64,000 nt of DNA from Bryobacteraceae bacterium (lineage in GTDB: Bacteria > Acidobacteriota > Terriglobia > Bryobacterales > Bryobacteraceae): NCBI GenBank assembly GCA_019752335.1, contig JAIEMJ010000023.1, positions 372,001 to 436,000 on the forward strand, written 5' to 3'. The notes under the pieces were generated by a model. That model saw only the letters and a program-made list of their open reading frames with translations, had not been told where the DNA came from and did not search any database. Below, in pieces: positions 8,554-42,916 of this stretch. Positions within the stretch are counted from its first letter, which is position 1, and each line of letters begins with the position of its first letter. The translations under genes and the position numbers were made by a program.

Positions 8554-10911
8554 ATGCTGCTCTCTCTTTCCATTGTCACCTGCCTGGCGCTAGCGCAAGA
8601 ACACACTCCGCAGAATGAGAAGAATCCCTTGGCGGGCAAACCCGAAGCCGTCGCCGCCGGACAGAAGCTCTTCGGACAAGCTTGCCAGTCCTGCCACGGC
8701 GGCAACGCCGCGGGCAGTGCGCGCGGACCCGCCTTGGCCACCGGCGTCTTCCGGCGCGGCGGCAAGGACGGGGAGATCTTCCTCAACATTCGCAACGGCA
8801 TCGCCGGCACGCAGATGCCGCCCTTCCCTGGCCTGACGATTGACCAGGGCTGGCAGATCGTGAGCTATCTACGCAGCCTGACGGGCGGCAAGAGCGCTGA
8901 GACCGTGGCCGGAGACGCTGTAGCCGGCAAGAGTCTGTTCTTCGGCACAGCAGGTTGCGCGGGCTGCCATGAAGTGAACGGCCGCGGCGGCATCGTGGGC
9001 CCGGACCTTTCGGCGGCGGGCGCGACGCCAGCCGAAACGCTGATGCAAAAGATCGTCGACCCCAGCCAGCGCAGCACGCCGCGCCGCCCTCGCGAAGGCA
9101 ACGCGGGCGGTACGGTGAACGTGACCCTGAAGAACGGCCAGCGCATCCGGGGCGTGAAGCGTAACGAAGATACCTACTCGCTACAGGTAACCGATTTGAC
9201 CGGCAAACTGCACTTGCTCGACAAGAGCACCATCACCGAGCGGCGCGATGAGGCCGTGTCCGTGATGCCGATGAACGCCAAGCTGTCGCCGGCGGACCGC
9301 CAGAATCTGGTGGCCTATCTGAAGTCGCTCACCGAACGCGACCTCGCCCAGACCGTGCAGGCACCCAGCGTCCCGGGCGGGTTGAGCTACGAGCGCATTC
9401 GCAACGCGGCCAGCGAACCCCAGAATTGGCTTACCTACTGGGGCGACTACTCCGGCAAGCACTTCACGTCGCTGGACCAATTGACCACGACGAATGTGAA
9501 GCAACTCCAGAGCCGCTGGGCCGTGCAAATGCCCGGCGACTCGGTCCTGCAATCCACCCCCATCGTCATCGACGGCATCATGTACACGGCTGGCATGCCC
9601 GGGCAGGTCTTCGCGCTCGACGCGCGCACGGGTCTCACCATCTGGAAGTATCAGCGCCCGCAGAAGAAGGTGAACACCTTCGAGAGCAATCGCTTCAACC
9701 GCGGCGTGGCCGTGTTGGGCAATCGCGTCTTCTTCGGCACGCTGGACGCGGCGCTGGTCGCGCTGGACGCGCGCACCGGGCGTCCGCTGTGGGAGACGCA
9801 AGTGGCCGACACGATGGAGGGCTACAGCATTACGGTGTCGCCGCTGGCGGTGAAGGACAAGATCGTGGTGGGCGTCGCGGGTGGCGAGCACGGCATCCGC
9901 GGCTTCCTCGATGCCTATGACGCCGCCACCGGCAAGCGCGTTTGGCGCTTCCATACCGTGCCCGGCCCGGGCGAGTTCGGACATGAGACGTGGAAGGGCG
10001 ACAGTTGGAAACTCGGCGGCGCGCCCACCTGGCTCACCGGCAGCTACGACCCTGAACTCGACACGCTCTATTGGGCCACCGGCAACCCCGGACCCGACAT
10101 GGATGGCGAAATCCGGAAGGGCGACAATCTCTTCTCCTGCAGCGTGGTCGCGCTGGACCTGGCCACCGGCAAGCGTAAGTGGCACTACCAATTCACGCCC
10201 AACGACAGCCACGACTGGGACGCCAACCAGGACCTCGTCCTGGCCGACCGCGTCATCGACGGCCAGCCGCGCAAACTGCTGCTGCAAGCGAATCGCAATG
10301 GCTTCTACTACGTGCTGGACCGCACCAACGGCAAGCTGCTGCTCGGCAAGAGCTATGTCCGGCAGACCTGGAACGCGGGCTTCGAAGCCGATGGCCGCCC
10401 CAAGGTAATTCCGGATTCTGACTCCACGCCCGAGGGCCGCGTCGTCTTTCCGACGCTAGTCGGCGGGACGAATTGGCAGAGCCCGTCCTACGACGCGAAC
10501 GCCGGCCTGCTCTACGTGATGTACAACGACGGAGCGCAGCGGTTCATTCGCGAGAAAGGCACCTACGAGCCTGGCAAGGCCTATTGGGGCGGCCGCGCGA
10601 TGCCGGCCGGCGATCCGCCGATTCCCGGCATTAAGGCCATCGACGTCGCCACTGGGCTGCCCAAATGGGACTACAAGCTGTCGCAAGGCAGTCTCGGCGC
10701 GGGCATCCTGGCGACCTCCACGGGCATTCTGTTCTCCGGCACCGCCGAAGGAAATCTGATCGCGCTCGAAAGCCGCACCGGCAAATTCCTGTGGCGGACG
10801 CAGACCGGGGCAGCGATTCTGTCGTCGCCGATTAGCTACTCGGTGGACGGGAAGCAGTACGTGGCGGTGTCGGCCGGTCAAGTGCTCTACAGCTACGCGC
10901 TGCCGGACTAG
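8554..10911 (+). CDS. Secreted PQQ-dependent dehydrogenase with two N-terminal cytochrome c domains
   Basis: 785 residues. A short signal-like N terminus (MLLSLSIVTCLALAQ) is followed by a first haem c site CQSCH (44-48) with GTQMPPF as likely axial Met, and a second site CAGCH (135-139). Then comes an eight-bladed quinoprotein propeller with repeated ALDARTG and DAATGK blade ends. TPNDSHDWDANQ contains the expected catalytic Asp, and GGTNWQSPSYD is typical of alcohol-dehydrogenase-type quinoproteins. It should oxidise an alcohol or sugar in the periplasm and pass electrons through its own haems; the substrate cannot be told. AGGAG abuts the ATG with no spacer, which is odd, and a stop codon just upstream rules out an earlier start. 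No PQQ synthesis genes are in the window. Confidence 0.92.
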   Translation: MLLSLSIVTCLALAQEHTPQNEKNPLAGKPEAVAAGQKLFGQACQSCHGGNAAGSARGPALATGVFRRGGKDGEIFLNIRNGIAGTQMPPFPGLTIDQGWQIVSYLRSLTGGKSAETVAGDAVAGKSLFFGTAGCAGCHEVNGRGGIVGPDLSAAGATPAETLMQKIVDPSQRSTPRRPREGNAGGTVNVTLKNGQRIRGVKRNEDTYSLQVTDLTGKLHLLDKSTITERRDEAVSVMPMNAKLSPADRQNLVAYLKSLTERDLAQTVQAPSVPGGLSYERIRNAASEPQNWLTYWGDYSGKHFTSLDQLTTTNVKQLQSRWAVQMPGDSVLQSTPIVIDGIMYTAGMPGQVFALDARTGLTIWKYQRPQKKVNTFESNRFNRGVAVLGNRVFFGTLDAALVALDARTGRPLWETQVADTMEGYSITVSPLAVKDKIVVGVAGGEHGIRGFLDAYDAATGKRVWRFHTVPGPGEFGHETWKGDSWKLGGAPTWLTGSYDPELDTLYWATGNPGPDMDGEIRKGDNLFSCSVVALDLATGKRKWHYQFTPNDSHDWDANQDLVLADRVIDGQPRKLLLQANRNGFYYVLDRTNGKLLLGKSYVRQTWNAGFEADGRPKVIPDSDSTPEGRVVFPTLVGGTNWQSPSYDANAGLLYVMYNDGAQRFIREKGTYEPGKAYWGGRAMPAGDPPIPGIKAIDVATGLPKWDYKLSQGSLGAGILATSTGILFSGTAEGNLIALESRTGKFLWRTQTGAAILSSPISYSVDGKQYVAVSAGQVLYSYALPD

Positions 10912-25176: not shown

Positions 25177-27039
25177 CTAAAAGATCCGCAAGCCCAACGT
25201 GAACTGGTGCATCCCAAAGGATTCCGCCGGATACAACGACTGCCCCAACGACGCTTGCCGCCATTCGGCCAGGAAGCTGGCGTGCGTGGCGACGGGAATG
25301 CGGAGCCGTGCCAAGGGCTGGTAGAACCGGCTCGGACGCGTCCCGCTCGACCGGAAGAGGCTCCCGCCCAGCGTCAGCGTCGCCTTGCGCGGCAAGCGCC
25401 AATCCGTGGCTAGAGTACCGGTATGCGCGTTGTCCTGGTAGAGGCTCCGCGAGAAACGGTAGAGCACCGGATCGAGCAGCGTGAAGTCGCTGCGGATCGA
25501 ACTGCGCGTGTAGTCGGCCATTACCGAAACGGCCTTGCCCGTCCACTGCAAGGTGACGTTGGCTTGCTGATTTTGGCTCGCGAACGGGAAGTGATTCTTG
25601 AGGCGCGCGAAACGCGCGTTGAGATGCCAGGCCTGGGAGAGTTGGTAACGGGCGCGCAGGCGCATCTGCTCAAAGTCCTGCAGACTCGTCCGAAAGTAGA
25701 CCTGCCGGCCACGGCCCACTTCGGCATCGCCGTTCAGCGTCAGTTTCGCCGTCGGACGAAAGACGAAACCGCCCAGCGCGGAATGACGATGCAAGGCACC
25801 CGTCTCCGTGGGACCACCCGGCGCAATCGTCGCCCGCCGGACCTCCGCTTCGCCCCACAGATAGCGATGGCCCCCGTAGAGCGTGAAGCGATTCGTAACG
25901 TCGTAGAAGGCCTGCACCCGCTGCTCATTCTGGCGCCACACCATGCGGTCCTCCAGATTCAACGGCGGCAATGCCCGCGCGTCGAGCGTCGTCACCAGCG
26001 AAAGCGCACCCGAATTGTGCGTCCGCTCGCTCTGCCAGGCTTCGACGATTCGCAGGCGGCTGAAAGGCCGCACTTCGAACGTCAAGCCCCCCGCCGACCG
26101 CGGCTGATTGGCGTAGCCCGTCGCCAGCGCCTGCTGGCCGTTGACGAAGCGCAATGAATCCAGCCACAGAATCGTACCCCGCGCGGACTCGTTAAAGCGC
26201 ACATCCGAGCGCGGCCGCGAGTAGTAATACTCGGCGCTCATGTCCAGCCAGGAGACCGGCGAATAGGTGAGATCCACCGACGAATAGAGATGATCCCCGG
26301 TGACGTCGTAGAGCCGGTTCGCGCTCTGCAGGGACAACGAACGGCCCAGCAATGGGGCTTCGCGATTGCCCGTGTTGCTCACCGTATTGAAGAGCGACGT
26401 GCCGTCAGAGAATGTGGCGCCGCCTTGTTCGAGCGTCAGATGCAGCTTGTCGAGTTCGTAGCGCAGCCCGCCGCGAAACACGGTATAGCCGGAGTCCACA
26501 CGGCTGGCGGCCGGGTAGCTATTCTCGTCGAGCACCAGCGGACTCACGCCGAGTCCACGGCTCGTGTTCTGCGCCGCGCCAAAGAAAGGCTGCAGCCGGT
26601 GGCCAGGCAATAGCTCCAGGTCGAAATTCCAGAAGCGTTGGCGGGTGTCGTAGGAGTTTTGGTTCGTCGTATACGCTTCGGTCCCCAGCTTGCCTAACTG
26701 CGGACTCGCAAAGCTCGGCAACGCATTAAAGTAGGCCAGATTCCGGTACTGAAAATGACTCCGGTAAGCCGTGGACCTCTCCGCGCGCACCTGCACCGAA
26801 TTGAGCGGATCGCCCCAATTGGCGCCGGTAATCCGCAAATCATCCAGCCACCGCAGCGGCGCGCGGTAACGGCTCTCAAACTGCAGCAAACGCGGACCCT
26901 CGCCCAGGTTCACCACACTGCGGTAGGTATTGAAGCTGCCGCGCTGCCCGGCCAGCGCGCGGTAGCCGATTTCGCTCGAGCCGGTAAATCCCTTCGCCGG
27001 TTCTTGCGCCCACAACGTTAGCCAGAGTAAAGCATTCAT
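25177..27039 (-). CDS. MtrB/PioB-like outer-membrane porin of a porin-cytochrome complex
   Basis: 620 residues from the ATG at 27039, which overlaps the stop of the decahaem gene by 4 bp (ATGA). A short signal-like N terminus (MNALLWLTLWAQ) is followed by a protein made almost wholly of alternating beta strands with aromatic girdles (YRSHFQYRNLAYF, VFRGGLRYELDKLHLTLEQG, WLDMSAEYYYSRP). It ends in a barrel-type terminus (HQFTLGLRIF). I see no cysteine, so the N-terminal CxxC of Shewanella MtrB is absent. Known role of the family: a large barrel that sheaths a decahaem cytochrome so electrons cross the outer membrane. The assignment rests mainly on its place after the MtrA- and MtrC-like genes. 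Confidence 0.8.
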   Translation of the reverse strand: MNALLWLTLWAQEPAKGFTGSSEIGYRALAGQRGSFNTYRSVVNLGEGPRLLQFESRYRAPLRWLDDLRITGANWGDPLNSVQVRAERSTAYRSHFQYRNLAYFNALPSFASPQLGKLGTEAYTTNQNSYDTRQRFWNFDLELLPGHRLQPFFGAAQNTSRGLGVSPLVLDENSYPAASRVDSGYTVFRGGLRYELDKLHLTLEQGGATFSDGTSLFNTVSNTGNREAPLLGRSLSLQSANRLYDVTGDHLYSSVDLTYSPVSWLDMSAEYYYSRPRSDVRFNESARGTILWLDSLRFVNGQQALATGYANQPRSAGGLTFEVRPFSRLRIVEAWQSERTHNSGALSLVTTLDARALPPLNLEDRMVWRQNEQRVQAFYDVTNRFTLYGGHRYLWGEAEVRRATIAPGGPTETGALHRHSALGGFVFRPTAKLTLNGDAEVGRGRQVYFRTSLQDFEQMRLRARYQLSQAWHLNARFARLKNHFPFASQNQQANVTLQWTGKAVSVMADYTRSSIRSDFTLLDPVLYRFSRSLYQDNAHTGTLATDWRLPRKATLTLGGSLFRSSGTRPSRFYQPLARLRIPVATHASFLAEWRQASLGQSLYPAESFGMHQFTLGLRIF

Positions 27040-27935
27040 CGCAGAAAGTCCCGGTTGATGTGCGACCCGTGAATCTTGGCGTGGCAACTGGTGCAGTTGC
27101 GATAAGCCGGCAGCCGCAGGTCATGGAAGCCCGTCGCCACCGTGCCCAGGGTGGCCGCACGGCCGCCCGGCGCGTTGGCATGGCACTCCAGGCAAAGGTT
27201 CAACACCTCGGCACGATTCAACATGCGTGGATTGGCGGACCCGTGCGGCTCGTGGCAGGCGGCGCAACCTTCCAGCCGCACCGGCGCGTGCTCGAAGGCA
27301 AAGGGGCCGCGCTTATCGGCGTGGCAATTGAAGCAGCCCGGCTCGGCATTCGTCGTCCGCGCCGTGCTCCGGAGCGCCGACGAACGCGACGTGCCATGAG
27401 GATTGTGGCAATCGACGCAAGACATCACCCCTTGCGGCAAGGCATGCGCGTGCGAACGCTGGAAGGCCGCCCAGGCGCTGGCGTGGCAGTTCGAGCACAG
27501 CGCATTGATGACCGCCGCGCTCTTCCCCGGACCTTCGTGATGCACAGAGTGGCACGAGACGCACGCCACCTGCATCCTGGCGTGCGAGCCGCTCACGCGC
27601 CCCACATGCGTCGCCTGATTGCGATGGCAACTTAGACAGGACGAGTCGGCTACGCGTGGCGTGGCCTTGGCGTGGTTAAGGATGAACTTCGCCTCGGCCG
27701 CCTCCCCGTGCTTCGCTCCCGGGCCATGGCAACTCTCGCAGGACTGCCCCTTCCAACCGCGGCTTACATTGTTTTCGAGCGACCCATGCCGCGTCTTCAA
27801 GAAGGCCTTGCCCATTTCCTCATGGCAGACCAGGCAGGCCCCCGTATTGGCGTAGCCCTGTTTGTCCGTGTGGGGAGGTTGGGCACCGAACACGAGGCCC
27901 AACCAGCACGCGATGATGGCCAGGCTAACGCGCAT
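27036..27935 (-). CDS. MtrA/DmsE-type periplasmic decahaem cytochrome c
   Basis: 299 residues with a signal peptide (MRVSLAIIACWLGLVFGAQ) and exactly ten CxxCH sites, at Cys 34, 66, 100, 125, 147, 173, 201, 224, 248 and 281. Length, haem number and spacing agree with the MtrA/PioA/DmsE family. That protein inserts into the MtrB barrel and carries electrons from the periplasm to the surface cytochrome. Many lone His residues (HGS, HAHALP, HGTS) are available as distal ligands. Its start overlaps the end of the MtrC-like gene by 11 bp and its stop overlaps the porin start by 4 bp, so the three are translated as a unit. Confidence 0.93.
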   Translation of the reverse strand: MRVSLAIIACWLGLVFGAQPPHTDKQGYANTGACLVCHEEMGKAFLKTRHGSLENNVSRGWKGQSCESCHGPGAKHGEAAEAKFILNHAKATPRVADSSCLSCHRNQATHVGRVSGSHARMQVACVSCHSVHHEGPGKSAAVINALCSNCHASAWAAFQRSHAHALPQGVMSCVDCHNPHGTSRSSALRSTARTTNAEPGCFNCHADKRGPFAFEHAPVRLEGCAACHEPHGSANPRMLNRAEVLNLCLECHANAPGGRAATLGTVATGFHDLRLPAYRNCTSCHAKIHGSHINRDFLR

Positions 27936-29937
27936 GCACCCGGTTCACCGAGAATTCCGCGTTCGGCCCGTGGCAGACAGTACAGCTCTCGCCCAGCGGC
28001 GAAGTATTCAACTGCGCGTGCGCCGCGGCGTCGCGCGAAGTATGGCAACTCAGGCACGCGGCCGTCGTCGCGCCCACCGTGGGCAGCCAACCGCGCGGAT
28101 CGGTAACCGCCGTCAGATTCGGCCGCAGCGGTAAGGACTGGGAGTTATTCACGTGGCAAGTGGAGCAATCCGAGGCGCTGGTGGGGAAGCCGACCTTGCT
28201 GAAATCATTCACCGAACCGCCAAAGCCGTAAATGATGTATGGCCGCCCCTGCTCTTTGCCCGTATGGATGCGGTGGACCATGCTCGCGAAGCTGATCGCT
28301 TCGTTAGGCGCCTGCGCGGCCGGGCGGCGCGCGCCGTCCGTCATGGTCGCGTTGTGGCAAACCACGCACGCTTCAATCTGATTCCGGTTGCGCCCGTGCG
28401 CTTCGAGTCGCGTGTGGCAGGCATTGCATTTCTCGAGCGCCACCACTTGACGGCGCCTTTCCACGCGCGTCCCGTCGACGCTGAAGTAAGTGATGACGTT
28501 CTTCAGCGGATCGCGCACCGTCGTCGGAATCCGGCCCGGCCCCTCGAAGGACGCATTGCGATAGCCTTCCGCGCTTACCGAGTACGTGCCGCGCGCCGCG
28601 GCGGGGATGGCCACCGCGAAACGATGCGTGGCGATGCCGGCCGCCGAGGCCGTATCCGTGCGCGAAGCCTCCGAGGTGTAAGTCGTATAGTCCGGCGCGG
28701 GCCCGGCCAGAATCAGGGAGAGCGACGTCATGTCCGCCGGAGCCAAGGGTCGGCCTTCCGAATCGCGCAGGCGGTAGCTGACAATCGGGTTCTGGCCGGG
28801 CGCCGTGTCGCGCACTTCGATCAGTTCGATCGACTGGCCCTTTAGATTGCGCGAGAACTCCGGCACCACGTGCGCGCCCTTCACCGAAATGTCCCATTCG
28901 CGTTCGCCTTCCGGCCGGTGGCACTGGCCGCATTGGGCGTCACTGGTTTGCACCAGATGGCCCTTGCCGGCGGCAAAGTCGATATTGTCATGGCAGGAGC
29001 CACAGGCGGTACGGGACGGCTCGAACATCGCCGTCGCCTGCGACGCCGCGTTCGGCCCCGTTTGGGCGTGGCACGCGGCGCAGTTGCGCGGATTGGCCGG
29101 GAAGCCTACCGCCGAATAGTCCACTTCGGTCTGGCCGAAGCCGATGATCGAGTACTTGCCGCCGGCCTTCACACTGGGAAGATCCTTGCCCATGTGAATC
29201 TTGTGGGTCATCACGGTCATATCCACGGTATTGCCCGTGTCCGGATCCACCGTTTGGGGCGTGTGGCAAAGTACGCACATTTCGAGTCCCCGCCGCGCTC
29301 CTCCGTGCGCCGAGATGGTCACGTGGCAGGCATTGCAGGACCCGGTCTTGATCACGTCGCGCACCTGCGTCACGGGTCCGCCCGCCGGCACGAAGTCGAA
29401 GGTCGAACTGGCATAATTCGTACCCAGATCGAACGCCGTCAAATTGCGGCTGGCATAAGCGCCGATGGTGTGCGTCGCCGTGCGATCAAAGCCGGCCGGC
29501 GCGCGCGTGGCGAAAGTATACGTGTATTCGCCCTCTACGTCGTTCTTCGTCCAGAAGCCGCCCGTGTCGGAGGAGGCTTGGGTTGCCGACACGCGGGTGA
29601 TCGGGCTGGTCTGCACGCGCGTCGTATAGGCGCGGTAGACCTTCTGATCCTTGGGAATAAAGGCAGCCACCATGCTCACGGCCACTGGGCCTGGCGTTGT
29701 GACGCCCAAACGATCCAGCGGCACGCCCAGCGGATCCGTCAGGCGTACCCGCGCCGCGATGGAGCCGTCGGCATTCACCACCGCCGCGATCACCTTCATC
29801 TCGAGCCCAGGGCGCACGAAACTCACCGTCTTCGGATCGGCGTAGAAGGCCTTCTCGAGCGCGTTGTAAGCACGCGGTCCGGCGGAGAGCGCCGCGCCCA
29901 CCAACACGATCAGCCAATAGAAATGTCGTTTCCGCAT
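27925..29937 (-). CDS. OmcA/MtrC-family decahaem cytochrome c (surface terminal reductase)
   Basis: 670 residues. Ten CxxCH sites in two groups of five: Cys 201, 221, 286, 312, 336 and Cys 504, 524, 591, 628, 652. Before each group is a beta-rich domain (about 30-195 and 345-500). This two-domain, five-plus-five layout is that of MtrC/OmcA. MTHKIHMGKDLP and MVHRIHTGKEQG precede the third haem of each half, a further internal repeat. The N terminus is a cleavable signal (WLIVLVGAALSAG) with no lipobox cysteine, unlike the Shewanella lipoproteins, so anchoring must rely on the porin partner. It starts 4 bp after the NapC-like gene. Confidence 0.93.
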   Translation of the reverse strand: MRKRHFYWLIVLVGAALSAGPRAYNALEKAFYADPKTVSFVRPGLEMKVIAAVVNADGSIAARVRLTDPLGVPLDRLGVTTPGPVAVSMVAAFIPKDQKVYRAYTTRVQTSPITRVSATQASSDTGGFWTKNDVEGEYTYTFATRAPAGFDRTATHTIGAYASRNLTAFDLGTNYASSTFDFVPAGGPVTQVRDVIKTGSCNACHVTISAHGGARRGLEMCVLCHTPQTVDPDTGNTVDMTVMTHKIHMGKDLPSVKAGGKYSIIGFGQTEVDYSAVGFPANPRNCAACHAQTGPNAASQATAMFEPSRTACGSCHDNIDFAAGKGHLVQTSDAQCGQCHRPEGEREWDISVKGAHVVPEFSRNLKGQSIELIEVRDTAPGQNPIVSYRLRDSEGRPLAPADMTSLSLILAGPAPDYTTYTSEASRTDTASAAGIATHRFAVAIPAAARGTYSVSAEGYRNASFEGPGRIPTTVRDPLKNVITYFSVDGTRVERRRQVVALEKCNACHTRLEAHGRNRNQIEACVVCHNATMTDGARRPAAQAPNEAISFASMVHRIHTGKEQGRPYIIYGFGGSVNDFSKVGFPTSASDCSTCHVNNSQSLPLRPNLTAVTDPRGWLPTVGATTAACLSCHTSRDAAAHAQLNTSPLGESCTVCHGPNAEFSVNRVHAR

Positions 29938-29941
29938 GAAC

Positions 29942-31288
29942 TCAACCTCCCAATTCCTGCATCGCTTTCAGATCTTTTTCTTCCACGCCAATCACCTTAT
30001 GGCAGGCTTCACAGTCCTGCGTCAGCCCTTGGCCGGCCTTTTTCGGCTTCAGTTCGTCGCCGTGGCAACGGAAGCAGCCTGGCGAATCCGTATGGCCCAG
30101 ATGCTGGGGATAGGTGCCCCAGCCCACCCGCATCGCGGGAAATACATTGCGCTCGTACAGGCTCACCAGTTCGCGCCCCGCCTTCACCAGTTCCTCCCGC
30201 GGTACCGCAGGTTGGTTCTTCTCATAAAACGCCAACAGCCTTGCCGGCAGCGCTGCCGCCGCCGCACCCGGCGCGTACTCGCCGCGCAACGCATCCAGCG
30301 CCGCCTTGCGGAACAAGGGCAACCGCTGCGGCAAGCGGCCCTCGGTCATCATCTGATCGACGCTGCGTTCTGGATTCTCAAACTCATGCGCGGGCCGGTT
30401 GTGGCAATCCAGGCAATCCATATCCCGGCGAAAAACCGCGGTCTCCTTACCGGCGCGATAACCGTCCGTCGCATACTCCGCGCCACTCTTGGTGCGCACG
30501 GCCAGCATGCGCGACCGCCGCTCATCAGCCGCCTCGTAGGAAACGCCCCGATGGGCGCGATGAATCGCGCCCAGCTTCAACATCAGCGCCGTCTCCAACC
30601 GTTCGCCCGCGTCGTTAAACTGCGTCCGGCGCCACAGCCGCTGGCCATAGTCGTGTCTGGGCGAATGGCAGTTCTCGCAAGTTTCGCCAGCCGCCTTCAG
30701 TCCATGCGGCGGCGACGGAATGGGACGCTGGTAACGCCCCGTAGTCACCAGAAATAACTGCCGCGTCCCATTCACCTTGGCGCGGATTGCATTCCCCGCA
30801 CCCTCGCCGATGTGGCACTCCACGCACTTCACCTGCGCGTGCGCCCCCGCCTGATAGGCCGCAAACTCCGGCGCCATCACATGGCAGGCCGTACCGCAGA
30901 AGTTCGTCGACTCCATGTAATGCACCGTCTGATACGTCAGCGCGCCGCCGATAATCAGATTCGCGCACGTGGCCCCGCCGACGAACAGCAAAAAGCGCAG
31001 TACGCGCCGATTCGCCAGATCGATCTTGTCCGGCAGCACATGATGGTCCGGCGACTCGCGCCGCCGCTGCAGGCTGATACCCAAGGGCACCAGCACCAGT
31101 CCCAGGAAGAACGTCGCCGGCAGGGCCACGAACTGCAGAATGCCCAAATAGCCCGACGCCGCGCTCGCGCCCGTCAAAAAGATCCACAGCACGGTGGCCG
31201 AAAGCAGAAGAAACAGTCCGATCCGGCTCAGCCAGTTGTCGGTGAAGTAAACGAGCGGCAGGATCCAGCGGCGCGTGAATTTGCCCAT
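29942..31288 (-). CDS. NapC/NirT-family inner-membrane multihaem cytochrome (ImcH-like)
   Basis: 448 residues. Three membrane segments (about 21-39, 50-72, 98-122) lie before the haem part. Haem sites: an unusual CxxxCH, CGTACH (131-136), then CVECH 155, CENCH 204, CLDCH 292, CFRCH 405 and CEACH 426, six in all. NapC-like proteins take electrons from menaquinol at the outer face of the inner membrane. The three-helix anchor, the CxxxCH site and the long C-terminal haem region recall Geobacter ImcH more than Shewanella CymA. Its place between the monohaem and decahaem genes suits the entry point of the electron route. It is 6 bp downstream of the monohaem gene. Confidence 0.88.
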   Translation of the reverse strand: MGKFTRRWILPLVYFTDNWLSRIGLFLLLSATVLWIFLTGASAASGYLGILQFVALPATFFLGLVLVPLGISLQRRRESPDHHVLPDKIDLANRRVLRFLLFVGGATCANLIIGGALTYQTVHYMESTNFCGTACHVMAPEFAAYQAGAHAQVKCVECHIGEGAGNAIRAKVNGTRQLFLVTTGRYQRPIPSPPHGLKAAGETCENCHSPRHDYGQRLWRRTQFNDAGERLETALMLKLGAIHRAHRGVSYEAADERRSRMLAVRTKSGAEYATDGYRAGKETAVFRRDMDCLDCHNRPAHEFENPERSVDQMMTEGRLPQRLPLFRKAALDALRGEYAPGAAAAALPARLLAFYEKNQPAVPREELVKAGRELVSLYERNVFPAMRVGWGTYPQHLGHTDSPGCFRCHGDELKPKKAGQGLTQDCEACHKVIGVEEKDLKAMQELGG

Positions 31289-31294
31289 GGAAGT

Positions 31295-31606
31295 CTACTT
31301 TTTCAGCGTCCGGATGAAGGCCACGATATTCGCCGCGTCCTTCTCCACGGCCGGAATCCCCTTCATCTTGCCCACCCCTTCCAGGGTCTCCTTGATCAAC
31401 GCCGCGTCACTCTTCCCTTGCACTTCGGGCGCGCCCAGATGCTTCATCTCCACTTTCAACATCCTGGCCATCGCGGCGTTCGGAGTGCCGTCCGCACCGT
31501 GGCACTTCTTGCAGGAAGCATCATAGGCCGCTTTGCCGGCGGCGGCGTCCGCTGCCCACGCCGCGCTAACGAGAACCATGGGAAAGAACAATTTGTACAG
31601 TTTCAT
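31295..31606 (-). CDS. Small periplasmic monohaem cytochrome c
   Basis: 103 residues. Signal peptide MKLYKLFFPMVLVSAAWA, then a class I cytochrome c: GKAAYDASCKKCHGADGT with the haem site CKKCH, a likely axial Met in VGKMKGIP, and the closing helix ANIVAFIRTLKK. It is the first gene of the five-gene porin-cytochrome operon and could shuttle electrons between the inner-membrane cytochrome and the MtrA-like protein. A candidate sigma-54 site sits directly upstream. The predicted transcript start would leave almost no leader, so ribosome binding is unexplained. Confidence 0.9.
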   Translation of the reverse strand: MKLYKLFFPMVLVSAAWAADAAAGKAAYDASCKKCHGADGTPNAAMARMLKVEMKHLGAPEVQGKSDAALIKETLEGVGKMKGIPAVEKDAANIVAFIRTLKK

Positions 31607-31618
31607 CGCCTATTGCTA

Positions 31619-31635
31619 AGCAAGTAACGGGCCAA
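31619..31635 (-). promoter_or_regulatory. rpoN-type site: Candidate sigma-54 (-24/-12) promoter of the porin-cytochrome operon
   Basis: On the minus strand the sequence reads TTGGCCCGTTACTTGCT. GG and GC are separated by exactly 10 bases, and it matches the TGGCACG-N4-TTGCW consensus at all but one fixed position. Initiation 12 bases past the GC would fall about 2 bases before the start codon at 31606, a very short leader. No activator site was identified. Confidence 0.4.
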
Positions 31636-31754
31636 CGTCTCCAGAGCGCCATATGCGCATTCTGCGTTCCGCGTCTGCGCGAAATCACGCAAACACCGCG
31701 CGAAATAGCACAATTCTTACGCACCACCCACACAAAACCGCGTGCGTTTGGCGA

Positions 31755-31771
31755 TTGGCCATTCGATTGCA
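31755..31771 (+). promoter_or_regulatory. rpoN-type site: Candidate sigma-54 (-24/-12) promoter of the divergent cytochrome gene
   Basis: TTGGCCATTCGATTGCA again has GG-N10-GC with intact TGGC and TTGCA. Predicted initiation near 31782 gives a 12-base leader containing GAGG (31784-31787) and the ATG at 31794. This geometry is coherent and supports function. The site is on the opposite strand of the same 187-bp region as the other candidate. Confidence 0.4.
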
Positions 31772-31793
31772 TGACGCATCGCCGAGGTACCCC

Positions 31794-32276
31794 ATGATTC
31801 TCGCCATCGCCCTCCTTGCCCTCGCCGCCGACCTTCCCGATCAGGCGATACGCGGCAAGGAGCTATTCAACCTGAAGAGCGCCACGGGCTACGCCTGCAC
31901 CACCTGCCACGCCGTCGCCGGCGAAGGGACAGCCGTAGGCCCGGACCTGAAGACCATTGCCCCTCTGCACCCCCGGGCCGTGGTGCTCGGTATCCTGGCG
32001 ACCCGCACCCAGTACGTGAAGACGGTCTCGCAGACCAAAACCAAGTCGTTTCCCATGATCCAGTCCGGGGACATCTACTACGACCTGTCGAAGAATCCCC
32101 CCGCCGCAGTGAAGCTGACGCCCGACGAGATCCAGAAAGCCCGGGACAACGGCTCCTGGAAACACCCACCCGAGTCACGCGGCCTCACCAAAGAGCAACT
32201 GGCCGACCTGATCGCCTACCTCCGCTTTGCCCTCGCCGGCGACGCCAAAGGCGTCGACGCCAAGGAACTGAACTAA
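31794..32276 (+). CDS. Exported monohaem cytochrome c
   Basis: 160 residues from the ATG at 31794, which has GAGG 6 nt upstream and yields a short signal (MILAIALLALAADLP). The frame is open 141 bases further up, but that part is the intergenic region. There is one haem site, CTTCH, in GYACTTCHAVAGEGTAVGPDL. A later TKSFPMIQSG may supply the axial Met, and the fold closes with LADLIAYLRFAL. It is divergent from the porin-cytochrome operon and shares its regulatory region, so it may belong to the same electron-transfer process. Confidence 0.87.
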   Translation: MILAIALLALAADLPDQAIRGKELFNLKSATGYACTTCHAVAGEGTAVGPDLKTIAPLHPRAVVLGILATRTQYVKTVSQTKTKSFPMIQSGDIYYDLSKNPPAAVKLTPDEIQKARDNGSWKHPPESRGLTKEQLADLIAYLRFALAGDAKGVDAKELN

Positions 32277-42586: not shown

Positions 42587-42916
42587 TTAGGGCTCCGGCG
42601 TTTCACGCACGATGATGCGCCAAGCGTGATCCTGGCCATCGTGGCTGCGGTAGCCGACGGTCACCCGGACCTGCTTTTTCAGGCGGCCTTCGACGATGGT
42701 GTCGCCGTCCAATACGAAAACGCGGGTCTCGGCTTGTTTGCCAGGCAATTGCCGCGCCACGGCCACGGTGGTCTCCGAGACCTCCTGCACTGCCCCCGAA
42801 TAGAACTCGTCATGGGACGAACCGTCACGGTTGGTCTCCTGGAAAAAGACGGGCGTTTTTTCCCACGCGAGGAGTGCGATGCCGAAGCTAAGAACGAGGA
42901 GTACGCGCATGGTCAT
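42587..42916 (-). CDS. Small exported hypothetical protein
   Basis: 109 residues. A signal peptide (RVLLVLSFGIALLAW) is followed by a small beta-rich domain: SGAVQEVSETTVAVARQLP, RVFVLDGDTIVEGRLKKQVRVTVGYRSHDG. The pattern recalls OB-like DUF5666-type periplasmic domains. It is convergent with glmU (9 bp between stops) and upstream of truB's stop by about 75 bp. Function unknown. Confidence 0.65.
   Translation of the reverse strand: MTMRVLLVLSFGIALLAWEKTPVFFQETNRDGSSHDEFYSGAVQEVSETTVAVARQLPGKQAETRVFVLDGDTIVEGRLKKQVRVTVGYRSHDGQDHAWRIIVRETPEP

Follow-up and report, generated by a model that had tools for sequence, protein, structure and literature searches.

Putative divergent sigma-54 promoters with a shared enhancer between cytochrome c genes of a Bryobacteraceae bacterium

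Background

Acidobacteriota are widespread in soil. To our knowledge, little is known about the switching-on of extracellular electron conduits outside Shewanella and Geobacter. Divergent sigma-54 promoters with a shared enhancer are found at the FhlA-controlled hyc/hyp genes of E. coli. HoxA and HupR are NtrC-type response regulators that control uptake hydrogenases, the HupR site being TTG-N5-CAA. The mycobacterial DosR dormancy regulon, with a LuxR-type regulator, comprises an Acg-type oxidoreductase, CBS and Usp proteins and a hydrogenase.

The locus described here lies in a 64,000-nucleotide stretch of Bryobacteraceae DNA (64 kb, the window). It resembles hyc/hyp in two predicted outward sigma-54 promoters, candidate activator sites between them and electron-transfer genes on both sides. 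It differs in that FhlA is a formate sensor, whereas the candidate activator here is a response regulator, and also in the sequence of the site and in the MtrCAB-like target. An NtrC-type response regulator, sigma-54, a predicted hydrogenase target and a PAS kinase gene near the regulator are points of likeness to HoxA/HupR; the present regulon, however, would include a porin-cytochrome operon, and the HupR site is unlike the dyad found here. Like the DosR regulon, the present one would bring together an Acg-type oxidoreductase, CBS and Usp proteins and a hydrogenase, but with a sigma-54 activator, and the site is limited to some of these genes.

Group 5 of the Acidobacteriia MtrCAB clusters is likewise an mtrCAB-type cluster of Bryobacterales (PMC8805035). 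As described there, mtrCAB of this group has no quinone oxidoreductase nearby and mtrB is followed by a tetrahaem gene, whereas in the present cluster a NapC/NirT gene and a cytochrome c gene precede the conduit genes. The passages of PMC8805035 on regulation and promoters do not treat control in Acidobacteriia, and no report of sigma-54 control of MtrCAB in Acidobacteriota was found in titles and abstract openings (few subscription journals; PMC8805035 and PMC10599522 included).

Results

Genes on either side of the intergenic region

The original prediction placed two back-to-back sigma-54-like promoters between a leftward five-gene operon and a divergent cytochrome gene. Five leftward genes are indeed present, from 31606 down to 25177, and both genes next to the gap encode class I cytochromes c:

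31295..31606, minus strand: cytL, class I cytochrome c, 103 aa, first gene of the operon
29942..31288, minus strand: napC, NapC/NirT-type multihaem cytochrome, 448 aa (PF03264 over cut-off, TIGR03153 below cut-off)
27925..29937, minus strand: OmcA/MtrC-family decahaem cytochrome, 670 aa (TIGR03507, 479 bits, cut-off 209)
27036..27935, minus strand: DmsE/MtrA-family decahaem cytochrome, 299 aa (TIGR03508, 229 bits, cut-off 192)
25177..27087, minus strand: candidate MtrB-like outer-membrane beta-barrel, 636 aa by the first start (structure model)
31794..32276, plus strand: cytR, class I cytochrome c, 160 aa, divergent gene (family matches)

The leftward operon encodes an MtrCAB-like porin-cytochrome conduit, with MtrA-type and MtrC/OmcA-type decahaem cytochromes in adjacent same-strand genes, both over curated cut-offs. 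At E 0.001 the barrel protein matches neither Pfam nor NCBIfam, and a codon-usage gene caller favours a start at 27015. Its structure model is of low confidence (mean pLDDT 57.6) and supports an MtrB identity weakly; the best PDB match is 6r2q_B of the Mtr complex (E 1.4e-10, TM 0.51), followed by other outer-membrane barrels. Close orthologs of cytR align from residue 2-4.

Promoter sites in the 187-bp gap

The starts of cytL (31606) and cytR (31794) enclose 187 bp. Both sites of the original prediction are found there, each with TGGC, TTGC and GG at -24 and GC at -12 in the exact N10 spacing of sigma-54 promoters, the generally known consensus being used. On the minus strand, TTGGCCCGTTACTTGCT has its TGG at 31634 and the end of its GC at 31620; on the plus strand, TTGGCCATTCGATTGCA has them at 31756 and 31770. 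Since sigma-54 polymerase initiates 12 nt past the C of the GC element, the following predictions result:

31619..31634, minus strand: -24/-12 element TGGCCCGTTACTTGCT, facing the cytL operon; predicted +1 at about 31608, leader of 2 nt
31756..31771, plus strand: -24/-12 element TGGCCATTCGATTGCA, facing cytR; predicted +1 at about 31782, leader of 12 nt with GAGG

The GAGG (31784-31787) noticed at good spacing before the rightward start codon lies 6 nt 5' of the cytR ATG at 31794. The predicted leftward leader of just 2 nt, like the tandem dyad at 31676/31697 described below, was absent from the original prediction.

By itself, the motif TGGC-N7-TTGC is weak evidence for promoters, because the window contains four exact matches (the remaining two at 42745 and 52068) versus 3.8 expected from shuffles. 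Such a count would also fit chance consensus matches in a GC-rich genome, with the genes using ordinary sigma-70-type promoters.

Conservation in related genomes

A cytL search in 237 genomes of the family, 100 of which matched, was followed up in the best 30 places (one from the genome under study, 29 from relatives). The cytL-napC arrangement occurs in 16 of these loci, i.e. 15 with napC seen and L072 at a contig edge. A sigma-54 site, counted as GG-N10-GC with a consensus score of at least 9 and 23-60 nt before the cytL start, is present in 14 of the 16 (the window locus included) versus none of the 14 others (Fisher 8e-7, kinship between genomes ignored); judged from the density in the flanks, the chance of such a site is 0.023 per locus. 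The two exceptions are L075, without any sigma-54 site, and L082, whose site at -87 is outside the tested positions. The site is not a general feature of napC loci: of 30 examined, those lacking the cytL-napC arrangement have mostly no strong site, or scattered ones, within 1.5 kb upstream.

A short predicted leader recurs as well. Counted in frame from the nearest ATG (GTG in L068) with the 12-nt start rule, the predicted cytL leader is 1-6 nt long in 15 of 15 loci, or in 14 of 15 after correction of L082, where another ATG, at 49 nt, seems the likelier start; further in-frame GTG codons lie upstream of the cytL start in L056 and L059. In the sample of the genome under study, 101 canonical sigma-54 sites were found. 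Nineteen are intergenic, and for eight of these the next gene begins no more than 300 nt away (12, 12, 13, 13, 19, 23, 34 and 296 nt). These distances suggest that sigma-54 mRNAs may be nearly leaderless. Some loci, e.g. L058, possess a Shine-Dalgarno-like run in the promoter spacer.

A dyad upstream of both promoters

In the relatives, a 16-bp dyad TGSGNNATWTNNCSCA recurs upstream of the sigma-54 site at about -57/-80. Counting of trinucleotide pairs was indecisive since the repeat is imperfect, and expectation maximisation (EM) was used in its place. Run with a width of 17 on 140-bp segments upstream of the site from 11 relatives, EM returned the near-palindromic motif CTGGGGCATATGACGCA, located at -57 to -59 in seven relatives, at -79/-80 in three and at -67 in one. 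The log-likelihood is 118 versus 49 (sd 2.3) in 25 shuffles, with width and region picked after a visual alignment that had suggested the dyad; a flanking region reaches 81, so that part of the likelihood reflects shared ancestry. The window contains two such elements, 21 bp apart:

31676..31691, strand not assigned: candidate activator dyad 1, TGCGCGAAATCACGCA, at -57 from the left TGG and -80 from the right TGG
31697..31712, strand not assigned: weaker candidate activator dyad 2, CGCGCGAAATAGCACA, at -78 from the left and -59 from the right

Dyad 1 is the best of 63985 positions in the window; dyad 2 is weak, with 7.1 bits and rank 13 of 63985. Conserved upstream activator sites, as expected of sigma-54 promoters, are thus present at both window promoters, and the pair may form one putative enhancer at about equal distances from both (-57/-78 and -80/-59). 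The genome under study has 65 matches to the dyad pattern versus 10 for a reversed control. Two of these matches, L085 and L086, were discarded, as both lie inside ORFs.

Genome-wide ranking

The matrices, for which only relatives were used (14 strings for the promoter, 17 for the dyad, the latter chosen by eye), were scanned over 1,303,057 and then 1,703,057 bases (1.70 Mb) of the genome under study, i.e. 24% of its 7.2 Mb in 55 contigs. The gene context of ranked sites was taken from a codon-usage caller, as longest-ORF calls misplace genes in GC-rich DNA.

For the combined promoter and dyad score, the right window site ranks first (39.8) and the left one fourth (31.2) in the 1.70 Mb. Between them are L130:4304 (33.7), before an Acg-family oxidoreductase gene, and L192:10072 (32.4), before the [NiFe] hydrogenase small subunit. 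L194:18042 (25.7) and L202:14782 (25.0, before a barrel gene) are next, followed at rank 7 by L129:10858 (24.9), which the gene caller places just inside the CBS gene adjoining the regulator described below, and which likely sits 29 nt before the actual ATG of CBS at 10887. Ranks 1-6 are intergenic, rank 7 is at a gene start, and ranks 8-15 (23.1 at most) lie inside called genes.

By promoter score alone, the right site leads the 1570 matches above 7 bits in the 1.70 Mb, with 22.7 bits. The left site scores 14.1 bits; at least 14 bits are reached by 53 sites in all, 38 of which lie inside called genes. The expectation that both would rank high in a sigma-54 scan therefore stands for the combined score, whereas the left site alone is not exceptional and has equals in coding regions, a circumstance that the original prediction had counted against itself. 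Site plus dyad is exceptional for both promoters.

The highest score among 150 Markov-simulated 64-kb sequences was 27.4, and none of them reached the weaker window site. Matrices limited to a single genus put the window sites at ranks 1 and 6 among 6669, with coding sites at ranks 4 and 5, above the left site; in six flanks of other genera the same matrices place the cytL promoter first or second. Chance matches, for which the motif count in the window and the many coding sites of at least 14 bits would speak, are very improbable in view of the conservation together with the cytL-napC arrangement, the fixed enhancer spacing, the ranking across species and the simulation.

Two further intergenic sigma-54 sites of the genome under study, L125:2481 and L125:11342 (contig C2; 19.8 and 19.5 bits), have no gene start within 250 nt and are absent from the top of the combined list.

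rpoN and a candidate activator

The original prediction asked for rpoN and an enhancer-binding protein. rpoN has one match in the genome (PF04552, E 9.6e-57). PF00158 matches in 21 places, 16 of them with at least 157 bits and treated as enhancer-binding proteins, and one of these regulators has orthologs beside the operon in relatives. It is encoded on contig C9 (G000:C9:19450-20772) and consists of a receiver, a Sigma54_activat AAA+ domain and a Fis-type HTH. This NtrC-type response regulator is likely the activator of both promoters, and may bind the dyad, because of gene adjacency in relatives and similarity of the recognition helix.

Regulator orthologs adjoin the operon, convergent with its 3' end, in 7 of 14 relative flanks (L113, L114, L115, L117, L118, L119 and L122). 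In L116, L123 and L124 the sequence beyond the barrel gene contains no regulator, although the genome of L116 (G107) has a copy about 32 kb away on the same contig; in L120, L121, L127 and L128 the contig ends too soon for judgement. The neighbour of the regulator is a PAS hybrid kinase in L119 and a non-kinase in L114. The operon-adjacent regulators are 56-60% identical to the C9 regulator over their full length, and C9 and the seven adjacent regulators have the HTH NQS-AA---L-I(S/G)RD-LRY(K/R)(M/I)K(K/R)(H/Y) in common. Among five other aligned regulators of the genome under study, none has NQS or RD, and L002 has LRY. No HoxA or HupR model is among the matches listed (25 of 119 families).

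At a cut-off of E 1e-144, chosen here, the regulator is present in 13 of 15 operon genomes (the genome under study included, G111 and G136 lacking it) versus 76 of 222 others; the operon genomes come only from the best 30 cytL loci, and G204, which harbours the site-less L075, is left out of the 15. These figures bear on another reading, in which the sigma-54 promoters are real but the dyad is bound by a different enhancer-binding protein of this bacterium. The C9 gene is unlinked to the conduit operon here, and those 76 genomes have orthologs of it with no operon among the 30 cytL loci. We nevertheless regard a different activator as unlikely, given the identity of the operon-adjacent regulators to C9 and their largely common recognition helix; the next regulator by score is about 42% identical and has a different helix.

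The C9 regulator, the preferred candidate, follows genes for a PAS histidine kinase and a receiver and precedes those for CBS, Usp and a CcoN-like oxidase. The whole cluster (L129:7667-17017), which also includes a cytochrome c and a P-type ATPase, resembles a low-oxygen or dormancy set. The sister genome G001 of the same genus has the regulator at 74% identity and no match to napC (E 0.001), cytL (E 1e-10) or the hydrogenase (E 1e-60). Other targets of the regulator are therefore probable.

The hydrogenase and the rightward promoter

A related genus (L113-L115, L128) carries, divergent from cytL, the gene for a [NiFe] hydrogenase small subunit. It is 91-93% identical to the copy in the genome under study and has its own sigma-54 site and dyad; two of these hydrogenase sites, with the dyads shared with cytL, are in the training set, and the scores are not independent. 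The hydrogenase of the genome under study is on contig C4 (start 210023), with a tandem dyad, a sigma-54 site and AAGGAG before the ATG. A search matched the hydrogenase in 49 of 237 genomes. Thirteen of 30 scanned loci score above 22 (four from the L113-L115/L128 genus, one from the genome under study), and nine of these reach at least 24.9, above the level of the best coding region; the other 17 score lower, have nothing or, in three cases, lack upstream sequence. It is very likely, as far as sequence can indicate, that the C9 regulator also drives this uptake hydrogenase and the Acg-family oxidoreductase of contig C6.

Seven cytR orthologs with 61-69% identity (L252-L258) are not preceded by a promoter of the rightward type, and a conserved sigma-54 promoter of cytR was discarded for this reason. 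Three distant cytR homologs (L266, L267, L272, among 29 loci of other genomes) show a dyad and promoter-like sequence at 20.8-24.3 bits, in a range where combined scores up to 23.1 also occur inside genes. Because the seven close orthologs lack the promoter, cytR seems to be a neighbour that came to lie beside it, and the rightward unit seems peculiar to the present arrangement.

The leftward promoter might then be the only functional one, the right site being a relic of the hydrogenase promoter and cytR using another promoter or being barely expressed. The hydrogenase with a sigma-54 site at that very position in L113-L115 and L128, and the close cytR orthologs without promoter, are in line with this. 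The right site, on the other hand, is the best sigma-54 match in 1.70 Mb and therefore unlike a product of decay, it has a suitable ribosome site and spacing, and the distant homologs show dyad and promoter-like sequence; we consider a relic improbable.

Further loci with dyad and sigma-54 site

The Acg-family FMN oxidoreductase (L130:4258-5390, contig C6; NF047509 over cut-off) has a dyad and sigma-54 site, with a predicted 2-nt leader before a GTG start (4332). At L194:17962-18150 (contig C4), downstream of an intergenic dyad (-79) and sigma-54 site, lie about 90 nt in which no gene is called; a strong hairpin and T run close this segment, making it a candidate sigma-54-driven small RNA.

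An OmcA-like query retrieved 33 loci, mostly from acidobacterial, Bryobacteraceae, Bryobacterales or Solibacter MAGs. Of 32 scanned over at most 3 kb upstream, several shortened by contig ends, 12 reach at least 24.9: nine cytL-type loci resembling the training set, and L294, L308 and L310. L294:5896 (29.8 bits combined) and L308:5925 (26.3 bits) are divergent acidobacterial mtr-type clusters with dyad and sigma-54 site directly before the OmcA-like gene. L310:5360-5530, on a Myxococcota MAG contig, contains the dyad TGGGCGATATGGCCCA at -78 and TGGCCCGCTTGTTGCA (31.1 bits combined), about 560 bp upstream of the OmcA-like match.

Discussion

The gap is in all likelihood a genuine and conserved control region for sigma-54. 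Its kind is known, its set of targets unusual. We hold it highly probable that it contains divergent sigma-54 promoters with a shared enhancer; this estimate covers that core only, and a one-sided promoter or another activator are variants that overlap with it. Shared RpoN control of electron-transfer genes, as originally proposed, is the best reading, on grounds beyond those first given, because of the conservation linked to the arrangement, the fixed dyad spacing, the ranks 1 and 4, the presence of rpoN and the operon-adjacent regulator. It holds overall, although the rightward promoter has no counterpart before the L252-L258 cytR orthologs.

The C9 regulator would bind the tandem dyad at 31676 and 31697 and activate RpoN polymerase in both directions. 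Leftward, a five-gene mRNA would be made for a cytochrome c, a NapC-type quinol-side cytochrome, the OmcA/MtrC-like and MtrA-like decahaem proteins and the barrel; rightward, an mRNA for the further cytochrome c, cytR. The inducing signal is probably low oxygen or redox state, and electrons would presumably flow out of the cell. With the same activator at hydrogenase and conduit, hydrogen oxidation and electron export would be co-induced.

More tentatively, a sigma-54 two-component regulon of Bryobacteraceae may join hydrogen uptake, MtrCAB-type export and dormancy-type proteins (Acg, CBS), perhaps reaching other phyla (the Myxococcota locus L310), with a nearly leaderless conduit mRNA in which the -12 element sets the position of the start codon; we think this possible, if somewhat doubtful as a whole.

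The analysis offers a candidate activator, a 16-bp motif and a short list of targets tying hydrogen consumption to electron export. If true, hydrogen uptake and electron export would be switched together in a soil-type acidobacterium.
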